A stretch of DNA of 64,000 nucleotides from Nonlabens xylanidelens (GTDB taxonomy: Bacteria; Bacteroidota; Bacteroidia; Flavobacteriales; Flavobacteriaceae): contig NZ_PTJE01000001.1 of NCBI RefSeq assembly GCF_002934445.1, positions 496,001 through 560,000 on the forward strand. The letters run 5' to 3'. A model generated the notes under the pieces. It was not told the DNA's origin. It saw only the letters and a program-made list of their open reading frames with translations, and did no database searches. Positions 5,328-61,980 of the stretch are shown here, piece by piece (position 1 is the stretch's first letter; each line of letters starts with the position of its first letter). The position numbers and the translations under genes are program-made.

Positions 5328-5975
5328 ATGTCTTTTAAACATCTTATCGATCCTGCATACAGTAAAAGTGATTATTTCCCTATCGACCTATCGGTTAATA
5401 ATACTTTTTGGAATGAGAACGATGTGAGTGACATCTCTACATTTGAAAAATATCTAGAAGAAAAGCGTACCCTAACCGGTAAATACATCGCTCATGGTGG
5501 TTATCTAGAACAACGCGCCTTATATAGAAAATCGGCTAGATTCCAGGCTGGTGTGGTACGCGACATCCATATGGGAATAGACCTTTGGGCTCCAGCTGGC
5601 ACAAGCGTTCATGCTTTTATGGATGGCGTGGTACATAGTTATGCGCACAATGACGACGCAGGGAATTATGGACCTACCCTAATCTTAGAACATGATTTCA
5701 AGGGCAAGAAACTCTACACACTTTATGGACATCTCTCTATAAGTGATATGGATAAATGGGCTGTTGGATTCCGCTTTCGCGAAAGCGAGACCATAGCAAC
5801 TCTAGGAAAACCAGGAGAAAACGGCGGTTATTCACCACATCTTCATTTCCAGATCATGACAGATATGCAAGATTACAAAGGTGATTTTCCAGGTGTTGCA
5901 GCGCGAGAAGAACTCGATAGGTATGATGGTGTTATTTTAGATCCTAATGAGTTTATTTTTGAAAAAATATTATAA
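5328..5975 (+). CDS. M23-family (LytM) peptidase
   Basis: Zinc metallopeptidase of the LytM/M23 family, which cuts peptide cross-bridges in murein or acts as a regulator of such enzymes. The 215 residues hold all expected metal and catalytic residues: H81-xxx-D85 (HMGID), YGH135, and HLH (His171, His173). No signal peptide is visible, so an extracellular location is uncertain; the N-terminal 70 residues are family-specific. The palindrome copy at 5772-5787 is translated here as RFRESE (residues 149-154) between the YGH and HLH motifs. The next gene starts at the last base of the stop codon. Confidence 0.85.
   Translation: MSFKHLIDPAYSKSDYFPIDLSVNNTFWNENDVSDISTFEKYLEEKRTLTGKYIAHGGYLEQRALYRKSARFQAGVVRDIHMGIDLWAPAGTSVHAFMDGVVHSYAHNDDAGNYGPTLILEHDFKGKKLYTLYGHLSISDMDKWAVGFRFRESETIATLGKPGENGGYSPHLHFQIMTDMQDYKGDFPGVAAREELDRYDGVILDPNEFIFEKIL
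5772..5787. repeat. Iterated palindrome copy 1 (in M23 peptidase gene)
   Basis: CGCTTTCGCGAAAGCG, perfect 16 of 16; preceded by TTC, matching the extended half-site. Read in frame as FRES. Confidence 0.95.
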
Positions 5976-6539
5976 TGCTAAAGAAAGATCAGTTAAGAAA
6001 ATGGAATACTATAGCAAGTGAAATTCTATACTTTGACAATAAAAGTAATAACTATAATTCAGTCAATTTTGATTTCTTGAGAGAAATAGGAATGCCATCA
6101 GAATGTTGGGAATTTTCTTTTGAAAATTTAAAAGAAAAGAACCTTAAGACAGTCAATTATCTGTGGAAATTACAAGATATTAACTACGATAATTTCTTAT
6201 CAATAGGATCTAATGGATCAGGAGATCCTGTAGCTATAAATATAGCAACAGAAGAATTTATTTATTTTAATCACGATAATTTTTTTGAAGAAATATTAAT
6301 TAATTCTAACCTCTCATGCTTTGCACAGTGTGTCCTTAAAATCGATTCCTTCTTAAATAATTTAATTAGAACCTAATTCAATTTTTGAAAATGAATTTAC
6401 TGATCAAAGTTATGAATTACTTTTATCTGAACTTAAAGAAATAGACCCTAGGGTTTTCTCTCTTAAAACAAATCACTGGAATATTATGTTAGACAGTTTA
6501 AAATGGGAAAGAGATGAAGAACGTAAAGACAGAAAATGA
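5975..6539 (+). pseudogene. SUKH (SMI1/KNR4)-like gene interrupted by a frameshift
   Basis: The first frame runs 5975-6376 (133 residues) and contains SIGSNGSGDPVAINIATEEF near residue 76-95, the signature region of SMI1/KNR4 (SUKH) proteins, which serve as immunity or housekeeping binding proteins. It stops at 6374-6376. A second frame, shifted by one base, reads without a stop from 6369 to the TGA at 6537-6539 and gives EPNSIFENEFTDQSYELLLS and later NHWNIMLDSLKWERDEE, which looks like the natural C-terminus of such a protein. The fusion point lies around 6363-6371. Either a real one-base indel, an assembly error in the AT-rich stretch, or programmed frameshifting. The gene overlaps the peptidase stop by one base. 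Confidence 0.7.
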
Positions 6540-6646
6540 ATATGAATATTATTCATTAAAGCCATCGCTTTTATGATTCCAAAGAAAGCGGCATTACTAC
6601 CCTTTCAATTTTGCTATCTTTACGATCTTATTCAATTATCTATTAA

Positions 6647-8990: not shown

Positions 8991-9782
8991 ATGAGCCTCG
9001 TTTCTATCATAATGCCTACTTATAACAGCATGGCAACGGTTCAAGAATCTCTAGACAGCATTATATCCCAAACTCATAGACCGCTAGAAATTATTACTAT
9101 AGACGACTGTAGTGTTGATGGTAGTTATGCTTTCGCGAAAGCGTATGCAGCAAAAAACTCTTCTCAAGAAATAACTTTTATTACCTTAAAGAACACCACT
9201 AATTCTGGAGCTGGAATAACACGAAACAAAGGCATAGATGCTGCAACTGGCACCTACATCGCTTTCTTAGATGCAGACGATTTATGGAAACAACATAAGC
9301 TAGAAACTCAAATTAACGCTATGAAGTCTCAAGATGCGCTAGTCTGTTATGGTGCTTATGAAATTTTTAAAACCATACCAGAAAAGCCCATAGCTATCCA
9401 CAAGGTATTTGAAAAGCTAACGTATCAAAAACTACATAAAAGTAATTACCTAGGTAATCTAACCGGTATATATAACGCTGCTGTTTTAGGTAAAATAGCG
9501 GTTCCTAATTTACGTAAACGACAAGACTGGGCGATGTGGTTAGATATCGTTAAAAAAGCAGGTAGTGCCATAGGTATTCAAGAACCCATAGCTAGTTACC
9601 GTTTAGGAGATGGTTTATCCTCAAATAAACTGGACCTTATCAAGTATAACTATGCCGTGTATAGATCGCATTTGGGATATTCTACTATTAAAAGCTGCTG
9701 GATGATGTTGCGATTCTTTTATGAGCAGTTTATTGTGAAGAATAGGATGAAGGTAAAAGTCGATTTCTTAAAAAGCGAATAA
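8991..9782 (+). CDS. Family 2 glycosyltransferase (TuaG-like)
   Basis: Inverting GT-A glycosyltransferase that adds a sugar from a nucleotide donor to the growing polysaccharide on the cytoplasmic face. Of 263 residues, the N-terminal SIIMPTYN and the metal-binding FLDADD (near residue 86-91) are diagnostic, and the KRQDWAMWL block is shared with TuaG-like transferases. It starts immediately after the stop of the sugar transferase (8990), so both are in one operon. Palindrome copy 2 is translated as YAFAKAYA near residue 46-53, between the nucleotide-binding strands. Confidence 0.88.
   Translation: MSLVSIIMPTYNSMATVQESLDSIISQTHRPLEIITIDDCSVDGSYAFAKAYAAKNSSQEITFITLKNTTNSGAGITRNKGIDAATGTYIAFLDADDLWKQHKLETQINAMKSQDALVCYGAYEIFKTIPEKPIAIHKVFEKLTYQKLHKSNYLGNLTGIYNAAVLGKIAVPNLRKRQDWAMWLDIVKKAGSAIGIQEPIASYRLGDGLSSNKLDLIKYNYAVYRSHLGYSTIKSCWMMLRFFYEQFIVKNRMKVKVDFLKSE
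9129..9142. repeat. Iterated palindrome copy 2 (in GT2 gene)
   Basis: GCTTTCGCGAAAGC, perfect 14-base core; read in frame as AFAKA. Confidence 0.95.
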
Positions 9783-9783
9783 T

Positions 9784-11655: not shown

Positions 11656-12924
11656 ATGAATGTTCTCATTTTAGGAAGCGGTGGCCGCGAGCACGCTTTT
11701 GCACAATCGATTATTAAAAGTTCACTTCTTAACAAGCTATACGTAGCACCAGGAAATGCAGGTACTCATGAAATAGCAACTAATGTAGACCTGGGCATCA
11801 CAGATTTTCCTGCAATAAAGAAATTTGTCCTTGATAATGATGTGACTATGATTATAGTAGGTCCAGAGGCACCACTAGTAGAAGGTGTTTATGACTATTT
11901 CCAGACAGAAGAGTTAAAACATGTAAACGTTATAGGACCTTCTAAACAAGGTGCTGTTCTAGAAGGTTCTAAAGAATTTGCCAAAGAATTCATGGAACGT
12001 AATAACGTCCCTACTGCAGCTTATAAAAGTTTTACTAAGGATAATCTTAAAGAAGGAATGTCTTTTATAGATAGTCTTAAACCTCCATATGTTCTTAAAG
12101 CAGATGGTCTTGCTGGCGGTAAAGGTGTTCTTATTATCGAGCATGCAGACGAGGCAAAAGAATCTCTAGAAGAAATGCTGGTAGGTGGCAAATTTGGTGA
12201 GGCATCTAATAAAGTCGTGATAGAAGAATTTCTAGACGGTATCGAGATGAGTGTTTTTGTAATGACAGACGGTACTTCTTATAAAGTAATGCCTACTGCA
12301 AAGGATTATAAACGTATAGGAGAAGGCGACACTGGTCTTAATACTGGTGGAATGGGCGCTGTATCTCCAGTTCCATTTGCAGACGATGTGTTGATGCAAA
12401 AAATAGAAGAACGCGTTATAAAACCTACTATTAACGGTTTTGTAAAAGAGAACATCGTTTATAAAGGATTTGTATTCATAGGTTTAATGATCGTAGATGG
12501 AGAACCAGAAGTAATTGAGTATAACGTGAGAATGGGAGACCCAGAGACAGAAGTAGTCTTACCTCGTATTTCTAGCGATTTATTGGCTCATTTACACGCT
12601 TTCGCGAAAGCGGAACTACACAAAGAAAACCTAATCCTAGATTCTAGAAGTGCGACAACAGTCATGTGTGTGGCAGGTGGATATCCAGAAGCCTATGAAA
12701 AGGGAATGGTAATATCTGGACTAGAAAATGTAGAAGACAGCATAGTCTTTCATGCCGGTACTGCTCTTAAAGATGGAAAAATAGTGACTAACGGTGGTCG
12801 CGTTATGGCGGTAACTAGTTTTGGACCTGATTTCAAACAGGCACTAAAAAAATCTTACCAAAACCTAGATAAACTAAGTTTTGATAAGATGTATTATAGA
12901 ACTGATATAGGTTTTGACCTATAA
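11656..12924 (+). CDS. purD: Phosphoribosylamine--glycine ligase
   Basis: GAR synthetase, second step of purine synthesis: 5-phosphoribosylamine + glycine + ATP. The 422-residue length is standard. Features: MNVLILGSGGREHAF at the N-terminus, ATP-grasp blocks KADGLAGGKGV and NTGGMGAVSP, and EYNVRMGDPE with metal-binding residues. Palindrome copy 3 is translated as LHAFAKAELH at about residue 313-322, right after the MGDPE...PRISSDL block, in a region where most PurD proteins have a variable linker. Single gene, divergent from the CapK-like gene. Confidence 0.95.
   Translation: MNVLILGSGGREHAFAQSIIKSSLLNKLYVAPGNAGTHEIATNVDLGITDFPAIKKFVLDNDVTMIIVGPEAPLVEGVYDYFQTEELKHVNVIGPSKQGAVLEGSKEFAKEFMERNNVPTAAYKSFTKDNLKEGMSFIDSLKPPYVLKADGLAGGKGVLIIEHADEAKESLEEMLVGGKFGEASNKVVIEEFLDGIEMSVFVMTDGTSYKVMPTAKDYKRIGEGDTGLNTGGMGAVSPVPFADDVLMQKIEERVIKPTINGFVKENIVYKGFVFIGLMIVDGEPEVIEYNVRMGDPETEVVLPRISSDLLAHLHAFAKAELHKENLILDSRSATTVMCVAGGYPEAYEKGMVISGLENVEDSIVFHAGTALKDGKIVTNGGRVMAVTSFGPDFKQALKKSYQNLDKLSFDKMYYRTDIGFDL
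12597..12612. repeat. Iterated palindrome copy 3 (in purD)
   Basis: CGCTTTCGCGAAAGCG, perfect, followed by GAAC (extended half-site GCGGAAC). Read in frame as AFAKA. Confidence 0.95.
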
Positions 12925-14751: not shown

Positions 14752-14754
14752 ATC

Positions 14755-15786
14755 ATGCCGCTACCTCAACGCATACTCGTCATTAGACTAAGCGCTATGG
14801 GCGATATTGCCATGTGCGTTCCTGTTTTATTAGCCTTAAAAAGAGATTATCCTAGTGTTGAGATAGTTGCGCTTTCGCGAAAGCGATTCCGTTCCATCCT
14901 AGAGCATATTCCAGACATCACGTTTATAGAAGCCGATGTAGATAATAGACACAAAGGTGTATCTGGACTCTACCGACTTTCTAAAGAAATTAAGGCTCTT
15001 AAAATAGATGCCGTAGCAGATTTTCATAATGTGCTGCGCAGTAAAATATTACGTACTTTTTTAAGAGGAATCCCTAAATCTAAAATTGATAAAGGACGCG
15101 CTGAAAAAAAGAAATTAATCAACGATCCTACTTTTTTTAAACCCTTAACACACAGTACAGAGCGCTATGCAAACGTGCTGCGTGAGTTAGGTTTTAAAGT
15201 CGAATTAAAAGGAAACGAGTTCTTACCCAAAAAAGCCGTTTTACCTCAAATTCATGATCAAATAGGTAGAAAAACATCAAAATGGGTAGGTTTTGCACCA
15301 TTTGCTGCACATGAAACCAAAGCGGTAACTATAAAAAAAGCAAAGAAACTCGTAAAGGCCATCTCTCAAGATGATCAAATAACGATACTTCTATTCGGTG
15401 GTGGGAAGAAAGAACAAGAACAACTGCAAATTATAGCTGGCACCACCTCAAATGTCATTAATATGGCAGGCATTACTTCATTTGAGAACGAATTAAGCGT
15501 TATGTCTCAACTAGACGCCATGATTGCTATGGATAGTGGTAACGGCCATCTAGCAGCTTTATATGGCGTTCCTGTTATTACATTATGGGGTAACACACAT
15601 CCTTATGCAGGTTTTGCTCCTTATGCACAACCAGAAGAAAATCAATTAACCGCAAATAGAGATAAATTCCCTCTAGTACCTACTTCTATTTTTGGGAATA
15701 AAGTGGTGAAAGGTTATAAAAAAGCGACTAGTTCTATTAAAGTAAAACAAGTTGTGGAACGGCTAAAGATCGTATTAGAGTCTTAA
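14755..15786 (+). CDS. Family 9 glycosyltransferase (heptosyltransferase-like)
   Basis: GT-B fold transferase of the LPS heptosyltransferase family, 343 residues, acting on lipid A-core at the inner face of the membrane. N-terminal RILVIRLSAMGDIAMCVPV is the family opening, and the C-terminal donor-site block is AMDSGNGHLAALYGVPVITLWG with NTHPYAGFAPY. Palindrome copy 4 (14870-14885) is translated as ALSRKRFR near residue 39-46, in the first Rossmann half. It is followed by a stretch with hairpins. Confidence 0.88.
   Translation: MPLPQRILVIRLSAMGDIAMCVPVLLALKRDYPSVEIVALSRKRFRSILEHIPDITFIEADVDNRHKGVSGLYRLSKEIKALKIDAVADFHNVLRSKILRTFLRGIPKSKIDKGRAEKKKLINDPTFFKPLTHSTERYANVLRELGFKVELKGNEFLPKKAVLPQIHDQIGRKTSKWVGFAPFAAHETKAVTIKKAKKLVKAISQDDQITILLFGGGKKEQEQLQIIAGTTSNVINMAGITSFENELSVMSQLDAMIAMDSGNGHLAALYGVPVITLWGNTHPYAGFAPYAQPEENQLTANRDKFPLVPTSIFGNKVVKGYKKATSSIKVKQVVERLKIVLES
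14870..14885. repeat. Iterated palindrome copy 4 (in GT9 gene)
   Basis: CGCTTTCGCGAAAGCG, perfect. Read in frame as LSRK. Confidence 0.95.
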
Positions 15787-15974: not shown

Positions 15975-18900
15975 CTATCTCACCACCTCAATCCATTGTC
16001 CTTTATTTCTCACGATATAATCTACATCATACATCGCTTCACATTGTAAACCTGGTAGATAGTATTTACCTAAGTAACTGGCGTTAATAGTAGTTTTAAA
16101 AGTAAGCGTTTCTTTACCTTTTAGGTCAAAATAATAGTTGACACGATCGTCTCTTATGTCTGTGTAATCTATACTGCTGTTAGTTTCTTGTGCTCCATAA
16201 TCTGTAAATCGAGTATTTACTATTTCCCAACCAGATGGTAAGATTTGAGTAAGTGCTACATCTTCTATTCTAGAACCAGTTGTGTTAGTAATAGTAGTTA
16301 CTGCAGTAATTTCTGTTCCTTGAGTCACCTTACTTACATCTACCGTATTTCCATCTTTATCGGTATAGGTAATGGTAGCTCTTAAATTACTTTGTGCTGT
16401 TTTTTCAGTCCCAACTGGTAATTTACCTGTCATAGCATTGGTGATAAAAATCGTGTTACTACCGTTGTTTTTTACAGTAACGGTTGTTTGATTTTCGTCT
16501 ATATCTAGATTGCGATTTGCGATGCTTTTTATACTCGATACTTTACTAGTTTTACCTTTAAAAGTATATTCTACGTTAACGCCTTTACCACCTATGTGGT
16601 TTGCATATTTACTGATAGCAATAAAACTATAAGCTAGTGCTTGCGTGTTATAATAACGGTCAGAATCTAAGTTTCTAGCCATTTCTTCCATAAGTTTTCT
16701 GGCACGCTCATCCTTTTTCATGATCGTATAGGTTTCTAACGCCATTGCACGATTACGTTGTGGAGATCCATAGGTTCTATAATCGTATTTCTTAGGTTGA
16801 AAATCTATATTACTCTTTGAAAGAAGCTCTTCAGCAGCCTTGTTCTGACCTACTAATGCATATGCTGCAGCTAGTCTCAACTTACTATCGTTAGAAAGGT
16901 TTGCGTTTTCGCGTAAGCGGTTCATAGAAGATAAATCTGGTGCTCCTGCTACTGCTAGTGTGTATAATCTATAGGCTTGGTACAAGTCATTGTGATTGTT
17001 ATAACGCCATTGTTTTGCCACTCTTTTTTGATAAGCAATCCAGTTAGATTTGAACGAAATAGGAACTGTATAACCAGCTTTTTCGGCCTCGATAATGAAG
17101 TGTCCTGCATAGGTTGTACCCCAGTCATTTACACTACCACTGCCTGGCCAGTAAGAGAAACCACCGTTTGCTTTTTGGTAGTAACCTAATTTATTTATCG
17201 CTGCCTTTATATTAGAACTGATTTCTTTTTGCTGATTGCTATTTAAATCAATCACGCTGGCAAGGTGCAGTTGTGGAAATGCTGCACTAGTGGTTTGCTC
17301 TACACAACCATGTGGATAACGTATTAAGTAATTTAATCGTTTACCTATGTTCATCGCTGGTAAACTAGAGAATGAAATAGTAGAAGCGTTGCTTCCTTTA
17401 GTTCCAAAAGGGTTTACAGCAATAGTAGCTGTTTCTCCTACTTTAAGGATTGCTTTTTCTGAAATCGTACTGTATGGATTTGGGTTGACCACATCTATTT
17501 CTGTCTCATAAGCAGCGGTCTCTCCATTTCCTCTTGCAGAAAGTTTTAACTTTGCTATTCCAGATGCATTCTTAACTTTTACATCAAAATAAGCGATTTG
17601 ATCTCCTGTTTCTGTAAATTTTAATTGCTGTGTATTGCCATTTAATAACTCAAAGAATGGTGAGTTTTCTAAGGTCACTTTTACATCTTTTACCTTATCA
17701 TCCATAGCAAAAATGGTAACCGGTAATTTTACTGTTTCTCCAGGTGACAGCTTTCGCGGAAGCGATGCCAGCATCATTAATGGTTTCTTTACTGGAGTTG
17801 CAACCTGGGCACTACCGTAGGCTTCACTGCGGTCATTACCAGCTACTACCATCGTGCGCACAGAACCTACATATTGAGGTATGTTAATAGTGTGCGTTTT
17901 TTTCTCGCCTGGTTGAAGTGTAAATGGTCCTAAGTGAATGACCATAGGTTTAAATCTATTTGCTTTCTTAGCCTTAGAAGCTGCTGCGCTACCATCACCA
18001 CCTATAGCAAATGCGGCATCTATACGACCTCCATAAGCACCGATAACATCGTCAAAGATGTCCCAAGTCTTTACTCCTAGCGCCTCACGTGCAAAGAACG
18101 TGTCCCATGCGTTAGGTGTTTTAAAGTTAGTTAAATCTAGTAATCCTTCATCTACAACGGCCAGTGTATAGGTCATTGCTTTGTTATTTTTCTCACTTAC
18201 AGTAACCTTAGCGCTAGTTTTAGGCGCTAGTTCTTTAGGCATCTTAATTTGTGGTTCTAGATGCGTTGCCGCATTTTCTACTAATAATGGTATGACACCA
18301 TACATTCTCAATGGAAGATCGTTTGCCGTTTGTGCATGAGGTTGCAAATAAGTGATATGCACATACACATTAGGCACATAAAGATTATTGAGCGGTATGC
18401 TTACCTCTGTTTGTTTGTCTTTAGTTTCTGCCCATTGTGCGTCTAGAACTTCGGTTCCATTCTCTACGGTGATTAACGCGCGTCCACCTGCGGTAGACGG
18501 GAATGTGATTTTTGCGTTCTCTCCTACTTTATAGGTTTTCTTATCTGCATTAAAAACAAGCATAGATGCCATTTCTGGATCTACTTTACGGCTTTTTCCT
18601 GCCCAACCTGGCCAGTCTACATAAATAATTTTACCGGTAGAATGTCCTGATTCTGGATCATAAACGCGCACTAAATATCTTCCCCATTCTGGATATTTAA
18701 GTGAGAATTTAAAGGTTCCTTTACCGCTAGAGTTGGTATTGATCGTGTTGTTATACACTTCTTCTCGGTATTCCTGAGCTTCATATCTAGAAAGGCTACC
18801 TGACTGAGATTGCCACCACCAGCGCCAGTTTACTTTATAAACTTTTACCTCAAGATTTTGAGTCGCCTTAGGGTTACCGCTTTGATCTACAGTTACTACA

Positions 18901-21632: not shown

Positions 21633-21648
21633 CGCTTTCGCGAAAGCG
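21633..21648. repeat. Iterated palindrome copy 6 (intergenic)
   Basis: CGCTTTCGCGAAAGCG, perfect, preceded by GATT and followed by GGAA, in the 382-base gap upstream of the alpha-2-macroglobulin gene and 42 bases before the composite intergenic element. Confidence 0.95.
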
Positions 21649-22542: not shown

Positions 22543-22558
22543 CGCTTTCGCGAAAGCG
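22543..22558. repeat. Iterated palindrome copy 7 (intergenic)
   Basis: CGCTTTCGCGAAAGCG, perfect, followed by GAAC. It lies upstream of the start chosen at 22497 and would be partly in a 5' leader. Confidence 0.95.
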
Positions 22559-22705: not shown

Positions 22706-24850
22706 TTACAGATTATCCAACTGATTATCGCTGCCGCCTATGGTCCAAAAGAAACCTACAAAGAAGAAACGGTCTGCTGCCTGGCCTATCGTACGACGGT
22801 TAAACTGTCCTTGAACATCTGGTGTGTCGCTGTATTGATAACCAAAAACGTTATCTCTACCCAACACATTTGAAACTGAGAAGTATAATATCTTTTGTTG
22901 ATCAATAAGGTAGGCCCAATTAAAATTAAGGCTTTGGAACGAGCTGGTTTTATCGTTTAAGAAACCTGTCTTATTTGCATTAGTAAATGGACGGCCGCTG
23001 GAATAATTAAAGGTGGCTCCTATTTGAGATTGTAGGTCTTCTATCCAGTATTTAGTCACCATACTGAAGTTATGATCTGTTGCAAAATTAGGTGTTGCCT
23101 CTATAGGGTAATTACGGAACTGTCGTTGCGTATCTAAATAAGAGTAACTTACCCAATAATCTAGATTTTTAATAGATTTCTCATCTCTCCAGAATAGATC
23201 TAATCCAGCGGCATAACCGTCACCATCGTTACTTAAATCGCTATCAAATTGTACACGAGTCGTGTTGTATGTTAATAACTGATCGTATTTTTTATAATAA
23301 GCCTCTGCTCTAAACATGCGATCGTTCTTTTTATAAAGGAAGTTTGCGATGTAATGTTGGGCATTTTCTGGTTGGAGTTCTTTGTCATACTGCTGCACAT
23401 TATTTTGAGCAGATTGATAAAAATTACCATAAGCTAGAGAGAATTGTGAAGATGGATTGATACTTACCGCAGCGCTTAATCTTGGTGACACTTTAAATTG
23501 ATCACTGGCTCCATAATAGTCGCCACGTAAACCTGCTTTAAAGGCGAGATCTTTAGAAACAAAAACCTCAGCCTCTGTAAAAGCACCGGTTATTCCATGA
23601 TTAATACCGGTTTCAAAAGTGTCGTTTTCCATTAACACATCTTCCTTATAATTAATAAGAAACTGTTCTACACCCATGTTGATTTTAAAGTAATTATTGT
23701 ATCGTTTTTGCAATTTAAATTTAGCATGCAGTGCATTTTCTACAGCATCTATTTTTGTGGTTTCTATGGTCATGTCATTATTATCATGTGCTAGACTTAA
23801 ACTTGTTTCTATATTCCAACTATCTGATAAATAACCGTTATAATTTAAATTACCATAATAATTTCTATTTCTTAATCCAAAATAGAAGCCTTCTTCTATA
23901 TCAATATCTTCTTGAATCAATGCTAGATCACTATAGGAATATGCACTGTATGCTTTAAAAAGTCCTTTATCAAATTGATGTCTAAAAACAGCTTCGGCAT
24001 TAAGAGACTGATAGGGTTTTTCAAATTGATTATTCTGGGGAACCAACTCATTATACGGAGCTAGGTTAATGTATTGGGCATTTAAACTAATGCTGTTTTT
24101 ACCCCAAATTTTTGTGTTGCCCAAATTAGCTCCTAAACTCATGATTCCTATTTCGGTTTTTTCTTCTTTGGGCACATCGTTTGTATTTAAGAGTAATACA
24201 CTAGAAAGTGCGTCCCCATACTCTGCGCTATAACCACCGGTAGAAAATGAAATACCGTCAAATAAGAACGGTGAAAAACGACCACGTGTAGGAATGTTAC
24301 CAGTAGTAGGTGTAAAGGGTCTGAAAACACGAGCACCATCGATAAAAATTTGGGTTTCTTCTGCACTACCACCACGTACAAAAAGGCGGCCGTCGTCTGC
24401 ATTATTAGATGTTCCCGGTAGGGTCTGTAACGCACCTACAAAATCGCCCACCGCACCAGCCGTAGTAACTATATCTAACGGTTTTAAAACACTGGCCTTA
24501 GAACTATCTCCTGCACTGAAACTTCCTGCGCTTAGGACTACGGTGTTTAATGCGTTTAAGCTTTCGCGAAAGCGTAATTTTAAACCCACCATATCTACTA
24601 TAAGAGCTTCTAATCTATAATCTTCATAACCTATATAGCTGGCAATTAATATTCCTGTTGAAGTTTCTTCTGTAGAAAATGAGAATTTTCCTTCGATGTC
24701 TGTAGTAGTACCGTCATAAGTACCTTCTAGGTAAACATTTACACCCATAACAGGTTGTTTTTCTTCATCTAGTACAATACCTGAAACAGTAGTTTGCGCA
24801 AAAGTAAAAGAGGCAATTAATAGACAAATAATCGAGAAAAGCGTTTTCAT
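22706..24850 (-). CDS. TonB-dependent receptor with CarboxypepD_reg domain
   Basis: 714-residue outer membrane beta-barrel importer. Signal peptide MKTLFSIICLLIASFTFAQ; then a carboxypeptidase regulatory-like domain (TVSGIVLDEEKQPVMGVNVY, about 21-95), a plug domain with LFVRGGSAEETQIFIDGARV, and the barrel to the C-terminal aromatic strand region. No SusD-like partner is adjacent, so it is not a polysaccharide utilisation SusCD pair; the substrate is unknown. The palindrome copy 8 is translated as LRFRESLNAL at the junction between the regulatory-like domain and the plug. Confidence 0.9.
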   Translation of the reverse strand: MKTLFSIICLLIASFTFAQTTVSGIVLDEEKQPVMGVNVYLEGTYDGTTTDIEGKFSFSTEETSTGILIASYIGYEDYRLEALIVDMVGLKLRFRESLNALNTVVLSAGSFSAGDSSKASVLKPLDIVTTAGAVGDFVGALQTLPGTSNNADDGRLFVRGGSAEETQIFIDGARVFRPFTPTTGNIPTRGRFSPFLFDGISFSTGGYSAEYGDALSSVLLLNTNDVPKEEKTEIGIMSLGANLGNTKIWGKNSISLNAQYINLAPYNELVPQNNQFEKPYQSLNAEAVFRHQFDKGLFKAYSAYSYSDLALIQEDIDIEEGFYFGLRNRNYYGNLNYNGYLSDSWNIETSLSLAHDNNDMTIETTKIDAVENALHAKFKLQKRYNNYFKINMGVEQFLINYKEDVLMENDTFETGINHGITGAFTEAEVFVSKDLAFKAGLRGDYYGASDQFKVSPRLSAAVSINPSSQFSLAYGNFYQSAQNNVQQYDKELQPENAQHYIANFLYKKNDRMFRAEAYYKKYDQLLTYNTTRVQFDSDLSNDGDGYAAGLDLFWRDEKSIKNLDYWVSYSYLDTQRQFRNYPIEATPNFATDHNFSMVTKYWIEDLQSQIGATFNYSSGRPFTNANKTGFLNDKTSSFQSLNFNWAYLIDQQKILYFSVSNVLGRDNVFGYQYSDTPDVQGQFNRRTIGQAADRFFFVGFFWTIGGSDNQLDNL
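24560..24573. repeat. Iterated palindrome copy 8 (in TonB receptor gene)
   Basis: GCTTTCGCGAAAGC, perfect core. Minus-strand frame reads FRES in an inter-domain linker. Confidence 0.95.
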
Positions 24851-45668: not shown

Positions 45669-47867
45669 ATGAATAAAAAGAAAAAAAGAAGCTCAAAGAC
45701 TAAGTTTCAGAATTTGAGTCAGTCGGTACTCAGTGCTATTAAGCAAGATCCGAATAAAAGTTACAACTACAAGCAAATTTGTGCACACCTAGGAATATCA
45801 GATTCTAGTGGCCGCAATCAGGTTATAAAAAAATTACATCAACTCAAATCTAAAGGAAAGATAGAAGAGATAGACCGTGGTAAATTTAAAATTATTAAGG
45901 CTATCGACTATTACACTGGTAGAATAGATGTAAGTACACGTGGTACCGGTTATGTAATTACCGAAGAACTAGAAGAAGATATCATGATACCTAAAAGATC
46001 ACTAGGCCAGGCGCTTAATGGTGATGAGGTAGAAGTATATGTTTATAATAGAAAACGAGGCTCACAACCAGAAGGTGAGATAACTAAGGTTATTAAACGT
46101 AAGAAAACTGAATTTGTAGGTGAGATACAGGTGCATGAAAAATTTGCTTTTGTAAACGTTACAGATCCTAAGATTCAAACAGATTTCTTTATACCAGGTC
46201 GAGAGATCAATGGGGCAAAAGATGGACAGGTAGTTCTAGTAGAATTTGTAGAATGGAATGATAAACAAGATTCTCCTAACGGTCGTGTTAAAGATATTCT
46301 AGGAGAACCTGGAGAACATGATACAGAAATACATGCTATTCTAGCACAATACGGTCTTCCTTATGAATTCCCTGCAGAGGTGGAGGAATACACAGAAAAA
46401 CTGGATAAATCTATATCTTCTCAAGAAATAGAAAAGCGTCGTGACATGCGTGACACGCTTACTTATACCATAGATCCTGCAGACGCAAAGGATTTTGATG
46501 ATGCATTATCATTTAAGGTTCTAGAAAATGGTAATTATGAAGTAGGTATTCACATTGCAGACGTTTCTCATTATGTAAAAGAAGGAACTGTTCTTGATGA
46601 CGAGGCTTATGAACGTGCGACGTCTGTATATCTTGTAGATAGAGTAGTGCCTATGTTACCTGAAGTACTTTCTAATGGTGTGTGTTCTTTAAATCCACAT
46701 GAAGATAAATTGTGTTTTTCTGCCGTTTTTGAAATGGATAATTCTAGTAAGATTCATAACGAGTGGTTCGGTCGTACAGTAATACACTCTGACCAGCGAT
46801 TTGCTTATGAAGAAGCACAACATATCATAGAAACTAGAAAAGGAGAGATTCCTGGTGATATTTCGCTTTCGCGAAAGCAAACAACCATACAGCCTGCAAT
46901 AGTAGAAGCTACTTTAAAGTTAGATGAACTAGCTAAGATCATGCGTGGACAGCGTATGGAAGATGGAGCTTTAAGTTTTGATAAAACAGAGGTGAAATTT
47001 AATCTTAATGATAAGTCAGAACCTGTAGGAGTTTATTTTAAAACATCTAAGGATGCTAATAAACTTATAGAAGAATTCATGTTACTGGCTAATAGAAAGG
47101 TGGCTGGTTTTATAGGTAAACAACAACCTAAAAAGACATTTATTTATCGTATTCATGATGAGCCTAATGATGAGAAATTAGGAGCACTTAAGAATATAGT
47201 TGTAAAATTTGGCCATACTCTAGATTTAAGAGATCGTAAAACGGTTACTAAGTCGCTTAATAAGTTATTAAGTGATGTAAAAGGAAATAAAGAGCAAAAT
47301 ATGGTAGACACGCTTGCGATAAGAACCATGTCTAAGGCTGTTTATTCTACTAATAACATAGGTCATTATGGTCTATCGTTTGATTATTATTCTCATTTTA
47401 CTAGTCCTATACGTCGTTATCCTGATGTTATGGTGCATAGATTATTACAGCATTACCTAGATGGTGGTAAAACAGTAAGTGAAGAATTATATGAAGAAAA
47501 GTCAGAACACTCTTCAGAAATGGAAATTCTAGCCTCTAAGGCAGAGCGTGATTCTATTAAATACATGCAAGTTAAATTTATGAAAGATCACTCTGACGAA
47601 GAGTTCTTAGGTGTGATTTCTGGGGTTACTGATTGGGGTATTTATGTAGAAATCATTTCTAACAAGTGTGAAGGAATGATAAGACTAGGCGACCTAGATG
47701 ACGATAGTTATGAATATGTAGAAGAAGAGTTTGCTGTTGTAGGTCGCAAGACTAAGAACACTTACACGCTAGGTGACGAGGTTTATGTAAAAGTAAAAAA
47801 TGCAGACCTTGTTAAGAAACATCTAGATTTCTGGATGATAGGTAGTAGAGAAGCAGTAGAAAAATAA
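45669..47867 (+). CDS. rnr: Ribonuclease R
   Basis: 732-residue 3'-5' exoribonuclease of the RNB family that degrades structured RNA. N-terminal winged-helix region (KQICAHLGISDSSGRNQVIK), cold-shock-type OB domains, the RNB catalytic block DPADAKDFDDALS (near 272) with its Asp residues, SPIRRYPDVMVHRLL, and an S1 domain at the C-terminus (about 640-725). Palindrome copy 13 is translated as ISLSRKQTT near residue 400. It begins the plus-strand side of the presumed origin. Confidence 0.95.
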   Translation: MNKKKKRSSKTKFQNLSQSVLSAIKQDPNKSYNYKQICAHLGISDSSGRNQVIKKLHQLKSKGKIEEIDRGKFKIIKAIDYYTGRIDVSTRGTGYVITEELEEDIMIPKRSLGQALNGDEVEVYVYNRKRGSQPEGEITKVIKRKKTEFVGEIQVHEKFAFVNVTDPKIQTDFFIPGREINGAKDGQVVLVEFVEWNDKQDSPNGRVKDILGEPGEHDTEIHAILAQYGLPYEFPAEVEEYTEKLDKSISSQEIEKRRDMRDTLTYTIDPADAKDFDDALSFKVLENGNYEVGIHIADVSHYVKEGTVLDDEAYERATSVYLVDRVVPMLPEVLSNGVCSLNPHEDKLCFSAVFEMDNSSKIHNEWFGRTVIHSDQRFAYEEAQHIIETRKGEIPGDISLSRKQTTIQPAIVEATLKLDELAKIMRGQRMEDGALSFDKTEVKFNLNDKSEPVGVYFKTSKDANKLIEEFMLLANRKVAGFIGKQQPKKTFIYRIHDEPNDEKLGALKNIVVKFGHTLDLRDRKTVTKSLNKLLSDVKGNKEQNMVDTLAIRTMSKAVYSTNNIGHYGLSFDYYSHFTSPIRRYPDVMVHRLLQHYLDGGKTVSEELYEEKSEHSSEMEILASKAERDSIKYMQVKFMKDHSDEEFLGVISGVTDWGIYVEIISNKCEGMIRLGDLDDDSYEYVEEEFAVVGRKTKNTYTLGDEVYVKVKNADLVKKHLDFWMIGSREAVEK
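46864..46879. repeat. Iterated palindrome copy 13 (in rnr)
   Basis: CGCTTTCGCGAAAGCA: perfect 14-base core, last outer base changed. Read in frame as LSRK. Confidence 0.92.
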
Positions 47868-52813: not shown

Positions 52814-52829
52814 CGCTTTCGCGAAAGCG
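52814..52829. repeat. Iterated palindrome copy 14 (intergenic)
   Basis: CGCTTTCGCGAAAGCG, perfect, preceded by GGTTC (extended GTTCCGC half). Lies 20 bases after the glnS stop and before its terminator. Confidence 0.95.
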
Positions 52830-56149: not shown

Positions 56150-57667
56150 TTATCCCAATTTCTCCATTGCAGTTTCTATGCGATTTACTGTTTCTGTTTT
56201 ACCTATCATAGAGGCTATTTCAAAAACATCTGGTCCCATAAGACTTCCTACTAGAGCTAGTCTTAATGGCATCATTACTTTACCAAATCCCATTTCTTGA
56301 GCAGCAATCCAGCCTTTAATAGCGGTGCTTAATCCTGCGGCGCTATCATCTTCTGTATCATTTATAATTTGAACTACTTGAGACATGATCTCGTTAGTAT
56401 CTTCCTTCCATGCTTTCTTTGCATTTTTCTCGTCATAGCTAGAAGGTGCTGTAAAGAAGAAGCCTGCTAGTTCAAAAAGATCTTCTGTAAAAACAGCGCG
56501 TTCTTTGACCATGCCTGCTACCATGCTTACATAATCTTCAGAACCGTAAGAGATATTTTGTTCTTGTAACGCTTTCGCGAAAGCGGAACCTATAACAGCA
56601 TCATCCTGTTGCACATACCACTGTTGTTGAAACCATTTTGCTTTTTCTGGATCATACTTTGCACCAGAGCTATTTACTTTGTCAAGGCTAAATGCAGCGA
56701 TCAGTTCTTCTAAATTAAAGATTTCTTGCTCCGTACCTGGATTCCATCCTAAGAAAGCAAGTATATTAACCATAGCTTCTGGTAAGAAACCATCTTCTCT
56801 AAAACCGGTAGAAAGCTCTCCAGATTTAGGATCTTTCCATTCTAGTGGGAATACCGAAAAGCCCATTTTATCTCCATCACGCTTGCTTAATTTTCCTTTA
56901 CCAGTAGGTTTAAGAATAAGAGGTAAGTGTGCAAATTTAGGACGTTCCCAACCAAAGCTTTCATACAACAACACGTGTAACGCCATACTAGGTAACCATT
57001 CTTCACCACGTATAACATGAGAGATTTCCATAGTATGGTCATCTACCACATTTGCCAGGTGATAGGTAGGCATACCATCGCTTTTGAAAAGTACTTTATC
57101 ATCTAATAGACTCGTATCGATTTCTATTCCTTTACGGATTTCGTCGTACATGTTTAAAGTCTTCAATTCTGGTTTAAAACGCACGGTGTAAGCGTCTCCA
57201 CGGTCTAGTCTTTCCTTTACTTCGTCTGCACTTAGAGTAAGTGAATTGGTAAAGTTTAATCTATTGTTGTGGTTGTATATAAATGTCTTTTTATCAGCCT
57301 CGGCAGTTGTTCTTGCCTGGGTTAATTCTTCAGTTGTGTCAAATGCATAATATGCAGCCCGTTTTTCTATCAATTCTTCAGCATAGGCGCGGTACATTTC
57401 TTTGCGCTCGCTTTGACGATATGGGCCACAATTTCCTTCTTTTTCTGGTCCTTCATCATAAGGAATCTTGCACCAGTTTAATGCTTCTATTATATAATCT
57501 TCTGCACCTTCCACATATCTGTTCTGGTCAGTATCTTCTATACGTAGTATAAAAGTTCCATTATGTTTCTTTGCAAATAGATAATTGAAAAGCGCTGTTC
57601 TCACACCACCTATATGAAGTGGCCCTGTAGGACTAGGAGCAAATCTTACACGTACATCTGTACTCAT
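56150..57667 (-). CDS. gltX: Glutamate--tRNA ligase
   Basis: 505-residue class I synthetase for tRNA-Glu. FAPSPTGPLHIGGVRTALFN (HIGH-like), and KMSKS as KLSKRDGDKMG near residue 258; C-terminal anticodon-binding helical domain. Palindrome copy 15 is translated as GSAFAKALQEQ near residue 362, in the region between the stem-contact fold and the anticodon domain. Confidence 0.95.
   Translation of the reverse strand: MSTDVRVRFAPSPTGPLHIGGVRTALFNYLFAKKHNGTFILRIEDTDQNRYVEGAEDYIIEALNWCKIPYDEGPEKEGNCGPYRQSERKEMYRAYAEELIEKRAAYYAFDTTEELTQARTTAEADKKTFIYNHNNRLNFTNSLTLSADEVKERLDRGDAYTVRFKPELKTLNMYDEIRKGIEIDTSLLDDKVLFKSDGMPTYHLANVVDDHTMEISHVIRGEEWLPSMALHVLLYESFGWERPKFAHLPLILKPTGKGKLSKRDGDKMGFSVFPLEWKDPKSGELSTGFREDGFLPEAMVNILAFLGWNPGTEQEIFNLEELIAAFSLDKVNSSGAKYDPEKAKWFQQQWYVQQDDAVIGSAFAKALQEQNISYGSEDYVSMVAGMVKERAVFTEDLFELAGFFFTAPSSYDEKNAKKAWKEDTNEIMSQVVQIINDTEDDSAAGLSTAIKGWIAAQEMGFGKVMMPLRLALVGSLMGPDVFEIASMIGKTETVNRIETAMEKLG
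56570..56585. repeat. Iterated palindrome copy 15 (in gltX)
   Basis: CGCTTTCGCGAAAGCG, perfect, followed by GAAC. The minus-strand frame reads AFAKA. Confidence 0.95.
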
Positions 57668-58031: not shown

Positions 58032-61000
58032 ATGACAAATTTTGAGATAATAGAGCTCAAGCTCAAGCGGTTTATAAGTAAATATTACCGCAATGAATTG
58101 ATAAGAGGTATACTTTTATTTTTGGCCTTAGGATTACTGTATTTTTTGTTTACCGTAGTGATTGAATTTTTTTTGTGGTTAAGTCCAGTAGGTAGAACCG
58201 TATTATTCGGTCTGTTTATAATGATGGAATTGTTTCTATTAGTTCGTTTTGTTCTTTTACCACTTGCAAGATTATTTAAGTTATCTCGAGGTATAGATTT
58301 TAGAGATGCGAGCTCTATGATAGGTACTCATTTTCCTGAAGTGTCAGATAAATTAATTAATGTTTTACAGCTTCATAAAAATGGAGGAGATGATGAGCTC
58401 ACATGGGCTAGTATTAATCAAAAAAGTGAGAGTCTTAAACCCATACCATTTACACTTGCGATAGATTATAAGAAAAACAAAAAATACCTACCTTATCTTG
58501 CTATTCCGTTGGTAATTATAGCTGGTTTATTTTTTACTGGTAATAATGAAGTTTTAACAGATAGTGCAAAACGTGTCGCAGATTTTAATAATGAATACAT
58601 TCCACCTGCGCCATTTACTTTTACCATTCTCAATGAAGATCTCAACACTTTACAACGTCGGGACTTTAAACTCAATGTAGAGGTAAGTGGTCGTAAACTG
58701 CCAGAAAATGCGAGTATTCATTATAACGATCAGACCTATTTTTTAACTCAAGATTCTCCAGGTAAGTTTAGTTTTATTTTTTCTAAACCTACTCAAGCTA
58801 CTCAATTTTATCTATCGGCTAATGAAGTTAACAGTCTTAATTATACACTTCAGGTAGATGACGTTCCGGTTTTAAACGGTTTTGATTTATTCTTGGATTA
58901 TCCATCGCATACTGGTAAAAAGGATGATGTCCTTGCTAGTACAGGTAATACTGTTGTACCGCAAGGCACTAAGATTACTTGGAAATTAAAAACTTCTAAG
59001 ACGAGCCACGTAGATTTTATAACCCCAGAAGAAAGATTTCCGTTTAAAAAGAATGATAATAGTTTCGCTTTCGCGAAAGTGGTATCACAACCTTTTAAAT
59101 ATTCGATTGCTACCTCTAACGATAACATCAAAGATTTTGAAGTTCTTAATTTTAAAATTGATGTTGTAAAAGATGAATATCCAGAACTAGATTTAGAGAT
59201 GAAAAAGGATTCTGTGGATTCTGATTTGATGTATTTTAAAGGTCAAGCTTCCGACGATTATGGTATACGTAAAATGCAGTTGGTCTATTATCCAGTAGAC
59301 GATGTTTCTAAAATTAAAAATTATGATCTGGGTTCTAATCGTGGCACTTTTGATCAATTTTTACTAACCTTTCCTGGTAATGTCAAATTAGAAGGAGGTA
59401 AGAGTTATCAATTTTATTTTGAAGTTATCGATAATGACGCTGTGAATAGTTTTAAATCTACAAAGTCAGAAGTGTTTTCTTATCGCAAATTGTCTATTGA
59501 TGAGTTTCAAGAAAAGCAACTCTCTCAACAAAAAGAATCTTTATCAAATTTAGAAGAAGCTGTTAAGGAGCAACAGAAACAACAAGAAAAGCTAGATCAA
59601 TTATCTCAAGAACAATTCCAGAAGAAGAATCGTAGTTTTAATGATAAACGCAAGTTAGAACAAGCTTTAAAAAACCAACAAAAGCAGGAGCAAAAAATGC
59701 GACAGCAGTTGGATAAAATGAAACAAAATCTTCAAAAATCAAATCTACAAGAATATGAAATGAAAGATGTTCTTGAAGATCGTATAGAAAAAAGTGCCGA
59801 GGAACTTAAAAAGAATGAAGAATTATTAAAGGAATTACAGGAGTATCAAGAAAAACTTTCCGCTGAAGAATTAAAGGAAAAAGTGGAGAAAGCTAAGAAG
59901 AATTCTAAAAAGCAGCAACGTAATCTTGAGCAATTATTGGAATTAACAAAGCGCTATTATGTAGAGCAAAAGTTTGAACAATTAGGTAAGGAGCTTCAAA
60001 AAATTGCACAGAAACAAAAGGAACAATCAGAGAAGGAAGGTGAAGATAATAAGAAGGAAGATCAGGATAAGTTGAATGAAGAATACAAAGAATGGGAGAA
60101 GCAACTTAAAGAGTTAGAAGAAGAGAATGATGGTCTTAAAGATCCTATGAGTTTAGAATTTGAACCTGAAAATTCTGAAGAAATTCAAGAAGAACAAGAG
60201 CAATCTAGTCAAGATCTTGAAAACTCAAAATCATCTGCTGCGCAAAAGAAACAGAAAAGTGCTGCTCAAAAAATGCAGCAACAAGCTCAGAAAATGTCTT
60301 CTCAAATGGCTCAAATGTCAGCTGATCAAATTAAGGAAGATGCTGATAGTTTGAGACAAATTCTAGATAATTTAATTGTTTTCTCTCAAGAGGAAGAGGG
60401 TTTAATGGAATCTATGCGCGACATGAATAGATTAAGTCCTAATCTGGGAAGTAAATTAAAGTTTCAAAAGGATTTAGAAAGCGCCTTTAAGCATGTGGAT
60501 GATAGTTTATTTGCTCTAGCAACTCGCAACCCTAAAGTAGGTCAGGATATTAATGAAGAGGTTACGGATATTTATTATTACCTAGATAAATCTCTAGATC
60601 AAATTGCAGAATTTGAAATGAATAAGGGTCAGGTGTCTCAGCAATTTGTTTTTAAAGGTGCTAACACTTTGGCAAATATGTTGAGTGCGTCTTTAGACGC
60701 TATGAATAATAGTATACCCATGCCAGGTATGGGGCAATCTGGTGATTCTGGTCAGGGCTTTCAATTACCTAATATTATTAAAAAACAAGAAAGTTTATCT
60801 AAGTCTGGGGCAGGAGAAGAAGGTAAGGATGGAGAATCTGGTAAGTCTGGAGAAAGTGGTAAAGATGGAGAAAGCGGTCAAGGCGGAGAGAGTGGAGAAG
60901 GTGGTGAGTCTGGACAATCTGGTAAGGATGGTCAGTCAGGTCAAGGAGGTGAGTCTGGTAAATCAGGACAAAGTGGAGAAGGTGGTGAGTCAGGTGAAGG

Positions 61001-61568
61001 TGGTGAAGGTGGACAAGGCGGTGAATCTGGAAATGGTGGCCAAGGTGGACAAGGCGGCCAAGGTGGTGATTCTGGAAAAGGCGGCAATAATGGTTCTGGT
61101 AATGGAGGAAGATCTGGTGGTGAAGATGGGGAACAACAAGGTTATAGAGAAAGTGAACAGGAGGCTGCTCGTATTTATGATATTTATAAACAACAACAGG
61201 AGTTACGTAATCAGCTAGAAGATATGATACGTCGTGAAGGTTTGGAAGGTAAAGTTGGTGATATAACAGATAAAATGAAAGCTGTTGAGCGCAAACTATT
61301 GGATCAAGGTTTCAATAGAGAAGTGCAACAACGCATGATGGATATACAACACGATTTATTAAAATTAAAAGATGCCGGTTTAGAACAAGGCGAGGAGAAT
61401 CAACGAGAAGCCACAACCAATGTTAGAGATTTTAATAACAATACAAAAGCCGAAATTCCTGATGCTTCTAAGTACTTTAATAACAAAGAGATTTTAAATA
61501 GACAAGTATTACCTTTGCAGCCCCAATACCGCAATAAGGTAAAGGAGTATTTTAAAGCTAATGATTGA
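58032..61568 (+). CDS. DUF4175-like large membrane protein with Gly/Ser/Glu-rich tract
   Basis: 1178 residues from MTNFEIIELKLKRFISKYYRN; an ATG at 58017 is also in frame, but the DUF4175 start pattern and the -7 box at 57999 favour 58032. Three membrane helices within the first 170 residues, a large beta-rich extracytoplasmic part, then a long Lys/Gln/Glu coiled coil (about 490-730) and a very regular tract of GESGKSGESGKDGESG-type repeats (about 925-1035, coded at 60820-61130). The C-terminal 150 residues are again helical. Role unknown. Overlaps ybeY by eight bases. Confidence 0.85.
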   Translation: MTNFEIIELKLKRFISKYYRNELIRGILLFLALGLLYFLFTVVIEFFLWLSPVGRTVLFGLFIMMELFLLVRFVLLPLARLFKLSRGIDFRDASSMIGTHFPEVSDKLINVLQLHKNGGDDELTWASINQKSESLKPIPFTLAIDYKKNKKYLPYLAIPLVIIAGLFFTGNNEVLTDSAKRVADFNNEYIPPAPFTFTILNEDLNTLQRRDFKLNVEVSGRKLPENASIHYNDQTYFLTQDSPGKFSFIFSKPTQATQFYLSANEVNSLNYTLQVDDVPVLNGFDLFLDYPSHTGKKDDVLASTGNTVVPQGTKITWKLKTSKTSHVDFITPEERFPFKKNDNSFAFAKVVSQPFKYSIATSNDNIKDFEVLNFKIDVVKDEYPELDLEMKKDSVDSDLMYFKGQASDDYGIRKMQLVYYPVDDVSKIKNYDLGSNRGTFDQFLLTFPGNVKLEGGKSYQFYFEVIDNDAVNSFKSTKSEVFSYRKLSIDEFQEKQLSQQKESLSNLEEAVKEQQKQQEKLDQLSQEQFQKKNRSFNDKRKLEQALKNQQKQEQKMRQQLDKMKQNLQKSNLQEYEMKDVLEDRIEKSAEELKKNEELLKELQEYQEKLSAEELKEKVEKAKKNSKKQQRNLEQLLELTKRYYVEQKFEQLGKELQKIAQKQKEQSEKEGEDNKKEDQDKLNEEYKEWEKQLKELEEENDGLKDPMSLEFEPENSEEIQEEQEQSSQDLENSKSSAAQKKQKSAAQKMQQQAQKMSSQMAQMSADQIKEDADSLRQILDNLIVFSQEEEGLMESMRDMNRLSPNLGSKLKFQKDLESAFKHVDDSLFALATRNPKVGQDINEEVTDIYYYLDKSLDQIAEFEMNKGQVSQQFVFKGANTLANMLSASLDAMNNSIPMPGMGQSGDSGQGFQLPNIIKKQESLSKSGAGEEGKDGESGKSGESGKDGESGQGGESGEGGESGQSGKDGQSGQGGESGKSGQSGEGGESGEGGEGGQGGESGNGGQGGQGGQGGDSGKGGNNGSGNGGRSGGEDGEQQGYRESEQEAARIYDIYKQQQELRNQLEDMIRREGLEGKVGDITDKMKAVERKLLDQGFNREVQQRMMDIQHDLLKLKDAGLEQGEENQREATTNVRDFNNNTKAEIPDASKYFNNKEILNRQVLPLQPQYRNKVKEYFKAND
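59066..59081. repeat. Iterated palindrome copy 16, one mismatch (in DUF4175 gene)
   Basis: CGCTTTCGCGAAAGTG, one base from the consensus; read in frame as AFAKV. Confidence 0.85.
60820..61130 (+). repeat. In-frame codon repeat (Gly/Ser/Glu/Gln tract)
   Basis: Short imperfect units of the type GGTGAGTCTGGT/GGACAAAGTGGA repeat in the DUF4175 gene, giving a glycine every third residue in many stretches (collagen-like spacing G-x-x). Length probably varies between strains. Confidence 0.8.
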
Positions 61569-61980
61569 ATTAAATTACCAGAATAATTTTGAGCAACTCG
61601 ATGAGGTTGTTTACTCAAAATGGTTAGAATCCATAGTCATTTCTGAGGGTAAAACTATAGGAGAATTGTCCTTTGTTTTTTGTTCAGACGAGTATCTTTT
61701 GAAAATTAATCAAGATCATTTAGATCATGATACCTATACAGATATTATAACTTTTGATTACTGTCTAGACGGTTTAATAAATGGTGAGGTTTATATAAGT
61801 ACGGATAGGGTTAAGGAAAATGCTGTTAGCTTTCGCGAAAGCGAGATAAATGAATTGCATCGCGTCATGGCACATGGTGTATTGCATTTATGTGGTTATG
61901 GAGATAAGAGTGATGAAGAAGCACGTATTATGCGTGAAAAAGAGAATGAAAAAATCGTGATGTTTCACGTGAAACAATAA
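61561..61980 (+). CDS. ybeY: Endoribonuclease YbeY (rRNA maturation)
   Basis: 139 residues. YbeY trims 16S rRNA and takes part in ribosome quality control. The zinc motif appears as HGVLHLCGYGDK: two His of H-xxx-H are present, while the third His of the usual GYDH is replaced by an Asp-containing GYGDK, as in other Bacteroidetes. Palindrome copy 17 is translated as SFRESEIN. Its last codons (MFHVKQ-stop) are the perfect parS site. The DUF4175 stop overlaps its start by eight bases. Confidence 0.9.
   Translation: MIELNYQNNFEQLDEVVYSKWLESIVISEGKTIGELSFVFCSDEYLLKINQDHLDHDTYTDIITFDYCLDGLINGEVYISTDRVKENAVSFRESEINELHRVMAHGVLHLCGYGDKSDEEARIMREKENEKIVMFHVKQ
61829..61842. repeat. Iterated palindrome copy 17 (in ybeY)
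   Basis: GCTTTCGCGAAAGC, perfect core; read in frame as FRES. Confidence 0.95.
61961..61976. promoter_or_regulatory. parS-type site 1, perfect
   Basis: TGTTTCACGTGAAACA is identical to the 16-base ParB-binding consensus (TGTTnCACGTGAAACA) as known from Bacillus and others. It is embedded in the last codons of ybeY, eight bases before the mnmG start. Confidence 0.85.

Follow-up and report, generated by a model that had tools for sequence, protein, structure and literature searches.

A palindrome iterated through the window

The subject of this analysis is a short palindrome in a 64-kb window of the Nonlabens xylanidelens genome (contig NZ_PTJE01000001.1, positions 496,001 to 560,000; the coordinates below are those of the window), where it recurs both within genes and in the gaps between them. 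The core of the palindrome, GCTTTCGCGAAAGC, is 14 bp long, and the window holds 15 exact copies of it and two copies with one mismatch each (17750 and 59067), all of which had been correctly located in an original prediction made from the sequence alone; the decayed copy reported there is present as well, with two mismatches, but starts at position 16905 instead of 16904. A further match with two mismatches lies at position 4743. Shuffling of the window with preservation of dinucleotides yielded a mean of 0.10 matches when up to two mismatches were allowed, and 0 of 100 shuffles reached 19.

Exact copies encode the peptide AFAKA in purD (12598..12611), gltX (56571..56584), an S41 peptidase gene (29122..29135), a TonB-receptor-plug gene, close to the N-terminus of the product (34881..34894), and ORF 8991-9782 (9129..9142), which appears glycosyltransferase-like by eye, with no family search made. 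The peptide RFRES is encoded by the copies in a peptidase M23 gene (5773..5786), in a TonB-dependent receptor gene (24560..24573) and at the 5′ end of an arylsulfotransferase-like gene with an uncertain start codon (39712..39725). The copy in ybeY (61829..61842) encodes SFRES, and those in a glycosyltransferase family 9 gene (14871..14884) and rnr (46865..46878) encode LSRKR and LSRK, respectively. The remaining exact copies are found in an intergenic region (21634..21647), just upstream of ORF 21883-22527(-) (22544..22557, also intergenic), directly 3′ of the ribose-5-phosphate isomerase B gene, between genes (44227..44240), and ~20 bp past the glnS stop codon (52815..52828). One of the one-mismatch copies (17750..17763) resides in an alpha-2-macroglobulin-like gene that also holds the decayed copy (16905..16918), and the other (59067..59080) in a DUF4175/collagen-like gene; ORF 58017-61568 combines a DUF4175 match with collagen-like repeats. 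Neighboring copies among the 17 are separated by 0.91 to 5.95 kb, in agreement with the predicted 0.9-5.9 kb, and the gene names purD, rnr, gltX and ybeY had also been assigned correctly. A mechanical list of open reading frames (ORFs) places 13 of the 17 copies within ORFs, but the predicted number of 12 is equally compatible with the list because the assignment of the copy at 39712 hinges on an uncertain GTG start.

Copy number and taxonomic range

The genome assembly of N. xylanidelens (G000; 3,276,842 bases in 21 contigs) contains 664 exact copies of the palindrome, that is, one per 4.9 kb or ~203 per Mb, compared with ~0.003 copies expected by chance (calculated from the base composition, ~35% G+C) and 0 for the reversed control. 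All 22 other Nonlabens genomes examined carry 288-857 copies (23 of 23 genus genomes positive), so the palindrome is a genome-wide iterated element, as had been predicted. A codon-aware expectation, against which the original prediction had proposed to set the count, was obtained by synonymous-codon shuffling: on average 0.65 copies were found per replicate (20 replicates), whereas the 515 kb of called coding sequence holds 81, which rejects a codon artefact.

Range searches covered Bacteroidota genomes and a viral collection. Among 99 genomes, comprising 23 from Nonlabens, 37 from other Flavobacteriaceae genera and 39 from elsewhere in the order, no copy was found in any of the 39 outside the family, and 31 of the 37 genomes from other Flavobacteriaceae genera were also without a copy, the other six holding 1-6. 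In a search across the phylum (395 genomes, including that of N. xylanidelens), 21 of the 394 others matched, with a maximum of 6 copies. Among the genomes searched, the array is thus restricted to Nonlabens.

In addition, 78 outgroup gltX loci, in which GltX is at most 66% identical to that of the window (two Nonlabens loci, 85%), were scanned for comparable iterated motifs. Only parS was found, plus local repeats in two loci, in a scan of limited power, in which one of the two Nonlabens loci was itself below the threshold for 10-/12-base palindromes. The parS-like palindrome GTTTCACGTGAAAC is present in the window at 61962-61975 and 63855-63868 and in each of the 23 Nonlabens loci examined (from 21 genomes, two of them seemingly counted twice), none of which contains GTTCCACGTGGAAC; by contrast, GTTCCACGTGGAAC is the form found in 58 of the 78 outgroup loci, the Nonlabens form GTTTCACGTGAAAC being present in 2. 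From these distributions, a switch of the parS sequence seems to have taken place in Nonlabens.

Structure and turnover of the site

Across 1.564 Mb from four species (584 kb of G000, 280 kb each of G002 and G009, and 420 kb of G022), 371 exact copies of the core were found, compared with 37 that deviate by a single base. When the two half-sites are superimposed, most of these deviations (29 of 37) affect base 2, 5 or 6, and there is one at base 3 and none at base 4. In the symmetrized logo of the 371 sites, the core is flanked by C at −1 (0.84) and T at −3 and −4 (0.67 and 0.78) and, farther out, by T at −10, −12 and −13 (0.53-0.68) and G at −15 and −16 (0.38 and 0.37); C is depleted from −4 outward, and on both strands G and T predominate in the 5′ flank. 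This weaker symmetric signal extends ~16 bp on each side, the whole site spanning roughly 46 bp. Matches between the left and right flanks occur at the chance level (z = −0.29), suggesting that each half is read independently, as by a symmetric protein. The lack of left-right covariation also speaks against a hairpin or cruciform, whether paired RNA or DNA, extending beyond the core.

The sites are conserved between species far above random 14-mers. Among alignable sites, 43 of 46 from G000 are exact in G002 and 33 of 46 in G009, and 37 of 51 from G002 are exact in G009, compared with 5.5-6.6% of random 14-mers that are exact in the second species (1500 per pair; 6.3% for G000 versus G002); for each pair, 17-21 of the 57-70 sites were set aside because the alignment was too short. 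Next to the core, in 107 conserved site pairs, identity is raised at 1-4 bp (0.843) and 10-13 bp (0.817) and lowered at 5-9 bp (0.749) and 14-18 bp (0.742), and at 26-40 bp it is 0.788, the control value being 0.781. In the gltX neighborhood of 21 genus genomes, where 743 of 1540 cells were unaligned and the cells are not independent owing to shared history, the 797 aligned cells comprise 590 exact copies, 102 with one mismatch, 2 with two mismatches and 103 with four or more. Of 20 relatives, 15 have the gltX site itself in exact form and 5 differ from it at one or two bases. At the place of the 59067 copy, 17 of 20 relatives have the exact form, two have one mismatch and one is unaligned, so the one-base change in N. 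xylanidelens is probably recent. The ybeY site is exact in G013 and G002 and has one mismatch in G010, and the other 17 relatives carry unrelated sequence; the ybeY codons read SFRES in G000 and SFGVS in G009 (by eye), such that the site goes with a changed protein sequence.

Random 14-mers are interrupted by alignment gaps in 76-95 of 1500 cases, and the core is affected no more often (14 of 275 site comparisons). In 8 of the 11 turnover pairs printed, a different, unrelated sequence stands ungapped at the place of the site in the relative. Together, these observations indicate that sites are gained and lost by substitution, not by insertion. They bear directly on the possibility that the palindrome is a dispersed mobile element or resembles repetitive extragenic palindromic (REP) sequences or Rickettsia palindromic elements (RPEs), to which its palindromic form and hundreds of copies might point. 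Considering that the flanks vary between copies and that a second site is rarely found within 2 kb of the first, this possibility is scarcely credible, and membership in the REP, RPE or miniature inverted-repeat transposable element families fails because the copies neither share sequence as a unit beyond the core nor insert as a unit. The original prediction had likewise set the palindrome apart from insertion sequence debris and REP arrays on account of its unclustered copies, a view that the even dispersion, the origin by substitution and the absence of insertion behavior all uphold.

Gene context and spacing

In N. xylanidelens, 81 of the 137 sites analyzed lie wholly inside called ORFs and occupy all three frames (AFAKA, 43; RFRES-type, 25; LSRK-type, 13). 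The other 56 lie at least partly outside called ORFs, compared with 16.4 expected, an excess that is an upper bound because ORFs were called mechanically (at least 90 amino acids, whole within the stretch), with short and cut genes missed. The 48 sites between two ORFs are distributed over tandem, divergent and convergent gaps as 31, 9 and 8, respectively, in 31.5, 10.9 and 11.4 kb of such gap, and the orientation classes follow the base content of the gaps. Among the 31 sites between tandem genes, 18 sit 11-36 bp past the upstream stop codon, a figure for which no control was run. The excess outside ORFs and the position behind stop codons are what might be seen if the palindrome were a transcription signal, be it the operator of an abundant regulator or a hairpin terminator. 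Such a role is nevertheless highly improbable, given that 81 sites are inside genes, in three frames, that the intergenic context tracks base content and that the flank halves do not pair.

The sites are spaced far more evenly than expected from random placement. The coefficient of variation of the gaps is 0.39 (67 sites), 0.515 (70) and 0.533 (57) in contiguous stretches of three species, whereas random placement gives ~0.98 (standard deviation 0.11-0.12). Along contig 1 of N. xylanidelens (654 kb, 154 sites), 2 pairs of sites are less than 1 kb apart and 9 are 1-2 kb apart, compared with 35.9 expected in each case, and beyond 2 kb the numbers are near chance; neighboring gaps are uncorrelated, and the largest is 10.4 kb. 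The spacing is therefore one of short-range exclusion (below ~2 kb) plus few long gaps, with no lattice. In G022, a single contig, each of 21 stretches of 20 kb contains 3-6 copies, indicating that there is no regional bias.

Comparison with known iterated motifs

In form, the nearest known system is highly iterated palindrome 1 (HIP1), the analogy proposed in the original prediction. Similar to HIP1 and the alternate HIPs, as described in the available text of PMC4390886, the Nonlabens palindrome is short, contains G+C and occurs clade-wide in hundreds of copies in genes and gaps. The HIPs named there are 5-8 bp long, compared with a 14-bp core in a Bacteroidota host, and reach 300-2700 per Mb in most cyanobacteria, compared with ~203 per Mb here. 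By analogy with HIPs, which are tied to methyltransferases in cyanobacteria (Elhai 2015, PMC4390886, available text), an orphan methyltransferase might modify the inner sequence, with a methylation-directed process creating or preserving the copies. This part of the analogy did not extend to Nonlabens for the four families searched. There was no hit for PF00145 in the N. xylanidelens genome or in eight of the other 22 genus genomes and none for PF01555 in N. xylanidelens, and PF02086 was found in 4 of the 23 genus genomes, N. xylanidelens not among them. PF02384 had hits in 21 of 23, including two strong ones in N. xylanidelens but none in G009 and G012, and G009 (one contig, 99% complete, 563 copies) had 0 hits for all four. 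Hence, none of the four families tracks the site, other methyltransferase families not having been searched. Furthermore, methyltransferases are not known to have targets as long as 14 bp, and an origin of this type is very unlikely.

In logo and dispersion, the nearest system is that of the DNA uptake sequences (DUS) and uptake signal sequences (USS) of Neisseriaceae and Pasteurellaceae, which, in the available text of PMC1939737, likewise have a strong core, weaker flanks, copies in genes and gaps and an even spread. According to the same text, Haemophilus influenzae has 1471 copies, and the spacing of uptake sequences is significantly even (citing Karlin et al.), yet less even than that of compaction sequences should be. 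The Nonlabens palindrome could thus be a DUS/USS-like but palindromic signal for self-DNA uptake and recombination, recognized by a machine other than a pilus, with imported site-bearing fragments recombining into the chromosome. The general picture resembles that of the DNA uptake enhancing sequences of Haemophilus and Neisseria, with a strong core, weaker T-rich flanks and many copies in genes (PMC1939737, available text), and N. xylanidelens itself has a type II/IV secretion ATPase. However, this type II/IV secretion/pilus ATPase family (PF00437) passes the cut-off in no more than 3 of the 23 genus genomes, N. xylanidelens included; a genus-wide pilus motor, unlike in DUS/USS hosts, was therefore not found, other competence genes not having been searched. 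The site further differs from DUS/USS in being perfectly palindromic, in its lower density, in its presence on phage contigs and in the scarcity of one-mismatch forms (37 versus 371), and divergence does not drop around conserved sites, although the species are perhaps too distant to show such a drop. On balance, we consider an uptake signal unlikely.

The few copies found outside Nonlabens include some that would be consistent with movement of Nonlabens-type DNA. In G237, from another Flavobacteriaceae genus, four palindromes lie in 15.7 kb within C1:305-345 kb, with flanks that are Nonlabens-like by eye, a cluster that speaks for the uptake reading; clustered outside copies such as these may, judging from the flanks, be DNA received from Nonlabens, and the flank logo may help to mark DNA moved from Nonlabens into other Flavobacteriaceae. 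In another genus, G033 has six palindromes on contig C18, and of the two examined, one has a high and one a low flank score. A 616-amino-acid ParB-domain protein is encoded near the G033 palindromes, and one of the same length is found in Nonlabens G014, G018 and G019, perhaps reflecting a shared mobile element. In genus g63, five repeated protein stretches, one of which is present in six genomes, account for 15 of the 21 sites, so these 15 look like chance occurrences in conserved peptides, even though two of them have positive flank scores on both sides. The context of 38 stretches outside the genus was read for an operator-site lead to the reader protein (leaving out G042, G178, G191, G439, the sixth site in G470 and four of the six in G033), and these stretches gave no such lead.

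Copies also occur on viral contigs, where a scan identified at least 120 stretches with a match; ~45 of the 80 matches listed have at least 50% G+C. Eleven viral records, hand-picked for low G+C and for good flanks or several matches, each with at least one site, contain 40 sites in 299 kb, although two of the records seem to overlap and some share homologous sites. Ten proteins from six of these stretches were compared with PHROGs, and eight matched: Mu-type transposases were identified in two stretches, along with two proteins of unknown function and one each of a transposition protein, a helicase, an HNH nuclease and a head maturation protease. The sites on Mu-like phage contigs count against a self-DNA uptake signal.

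A Chi-like or other repair or replication site, recognized by an AddAB-type nuclease-helicase or a repair protein, with the palindrome serving both directions, is also to be weighed. Chi occurs roughly once per 4.6 kb in E. coli, close to the one per 4.9 kb observed here, and the 5′ flanks of both strands, rich in G/T and poor in C, might suit RecA loading. Moreover, phage P12024S, for which the isolation host was a Nonlabens (Persicivirga) strain and which shows no integrase or transposase among the 57 of its 59 annotations examined, lacks the site over 35.0 of its 35.7 kb even when two mismatches are allowed, compared with ~7 copies calculated at host density. Known Chi sites are, however, 5-8 nt long and not palindromic, and RecC (TIGR01450) was detected in 0 of 59 genomes in a search that was positive for the E. 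coli control and did not include AddAB. This assignment appears quite unlikely.

A possible role in chromosome organization

Taken together, these results lead us to favor, tentatively, a reading in which GCTTTCGCGAAAGC is the site of a symmetric DNA-binding protein that most likely organizes the chromosome. The palindrome would form the almost invariant core within a two-fold symmetric site of ~46 bp, read by a dimer or a higher even multimer, and about one such site per 4-5 kb would be kept around the chromosome. Because a second site within ~2 kb is rare and site-free stretches beyond ~10 kb are rare as well, one site seems to serve its neighborhood, and the reader would most likely act as a nucleoid protein by which loops of a few kb are anchored, bridged or bounded. 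We infer both that the reader is a protein and that it acts in organization rather than in repair or recombination, the latter because of the uniformity of the array, the exclusion over ~2 kb and the failed tests for a genus-wide pilus, RecC and methyltransferases. Sequences involved in compaction would indeed be expected to be evenly spaced (PMC1939737, available text). Among the four functions offered in the original prediction, a protein target and a chromosome-organizing site accordingly fit best, and methylation and uptake through a genus-wide pilus motor are disfavored.

Several observations weigh against this role. Even spacing and uniformity fit repair, recombination or uptake as well; close pairs of sites occur (109 bp in G002, 270 bp in G004), and G009 has a gap of 11.4 kb between sites. 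A test for the relocation of lost sites gave no significant result for any of three pairs of species (p = 0.081, 0.369 and 0.225). The sites on phage contigs are allowed, but not predicted, by a role in organization. Finally, no binding protein for the site was found among the families searched, and a genus-wide second ParB/Noc-like reader was not found, ParB being the sole architectural family tested. ParB_N (PF02195) has a single hit in N. xylanidelens and in 19 of the 22 other genomes, and extra copies were found only in G014, G018 and G019. Nor was a reader recognized by Pfam among the window genes, 30 further ORFs included; the DNA-binding proteins among those 30 are Cro/C1-, ArsR- and Crp-type regulators, none of them tested as a reader.

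The sites of Noc/ParB, MatP and SlmA are palindromes of 12-16 bp that are read by dimers with a chromosome-wide job, but they number in the tens and are confined to chromosome regions. The Nonlabens sites, by comparison, number 288-857 and are evenly spread, with one ParB_N protein in 20 of the 23 genomes. Membership among parS or Noc-binding sites fails because there is no extra genus-wide ParB reader and the sites are not concentrated (3-6 per 20 kb in G022). More doubtful than a role in organization as such is that Nonlabens evolved a genus-private organizing system, with a dedicated protein unlike Noc, MatP and the known nucleoid proteins and with domains of a few genes; the rise of such a system may have accompanied the parS switch in Nonlabens.

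Each named family failed at least one defining test, except AddAB-type Chi, which was not tested, and we file the palindrome as a genome-wide iterated motif that is a member of no named family. Text searches, with bioRxiv and most subscription papers outside their scope, found neither the 14-mer nor its 12-base core in 5.39 million papers and nothing that appeared relevant on Nonlabens palindromes, uptake signals in Flavobacteria or palindromes in Flavobacteriaceae. Genome-wide iterated motifs such as HIP1, DUS, Chi and the FtsK-orienting polar sequences have each pointed to a process. The Nonlabens motif is longer than these, highly exact, regular and, among the genomes searched, genus-private, and it offers a tractable system with a defined site and many related genomes. 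Should its reader prove architectural, this would probably be the densest known sequence-programmed scaffold of a bacterial chromosome.

Other palindromes in the window

A second palindrome of 14-16 bp, TTCCCTCGAGGGAA, is present in two copies (21719-21732 and 22644-22657) that flank ORF 21883-22527, which has no Pfam match, and each copy is less than 100 bases from an iterated site. The hexamer TCTAGA occurs 75 times in the 64-kb window and is the third commonest palindromic hexamer there, after two composed only of A and T.

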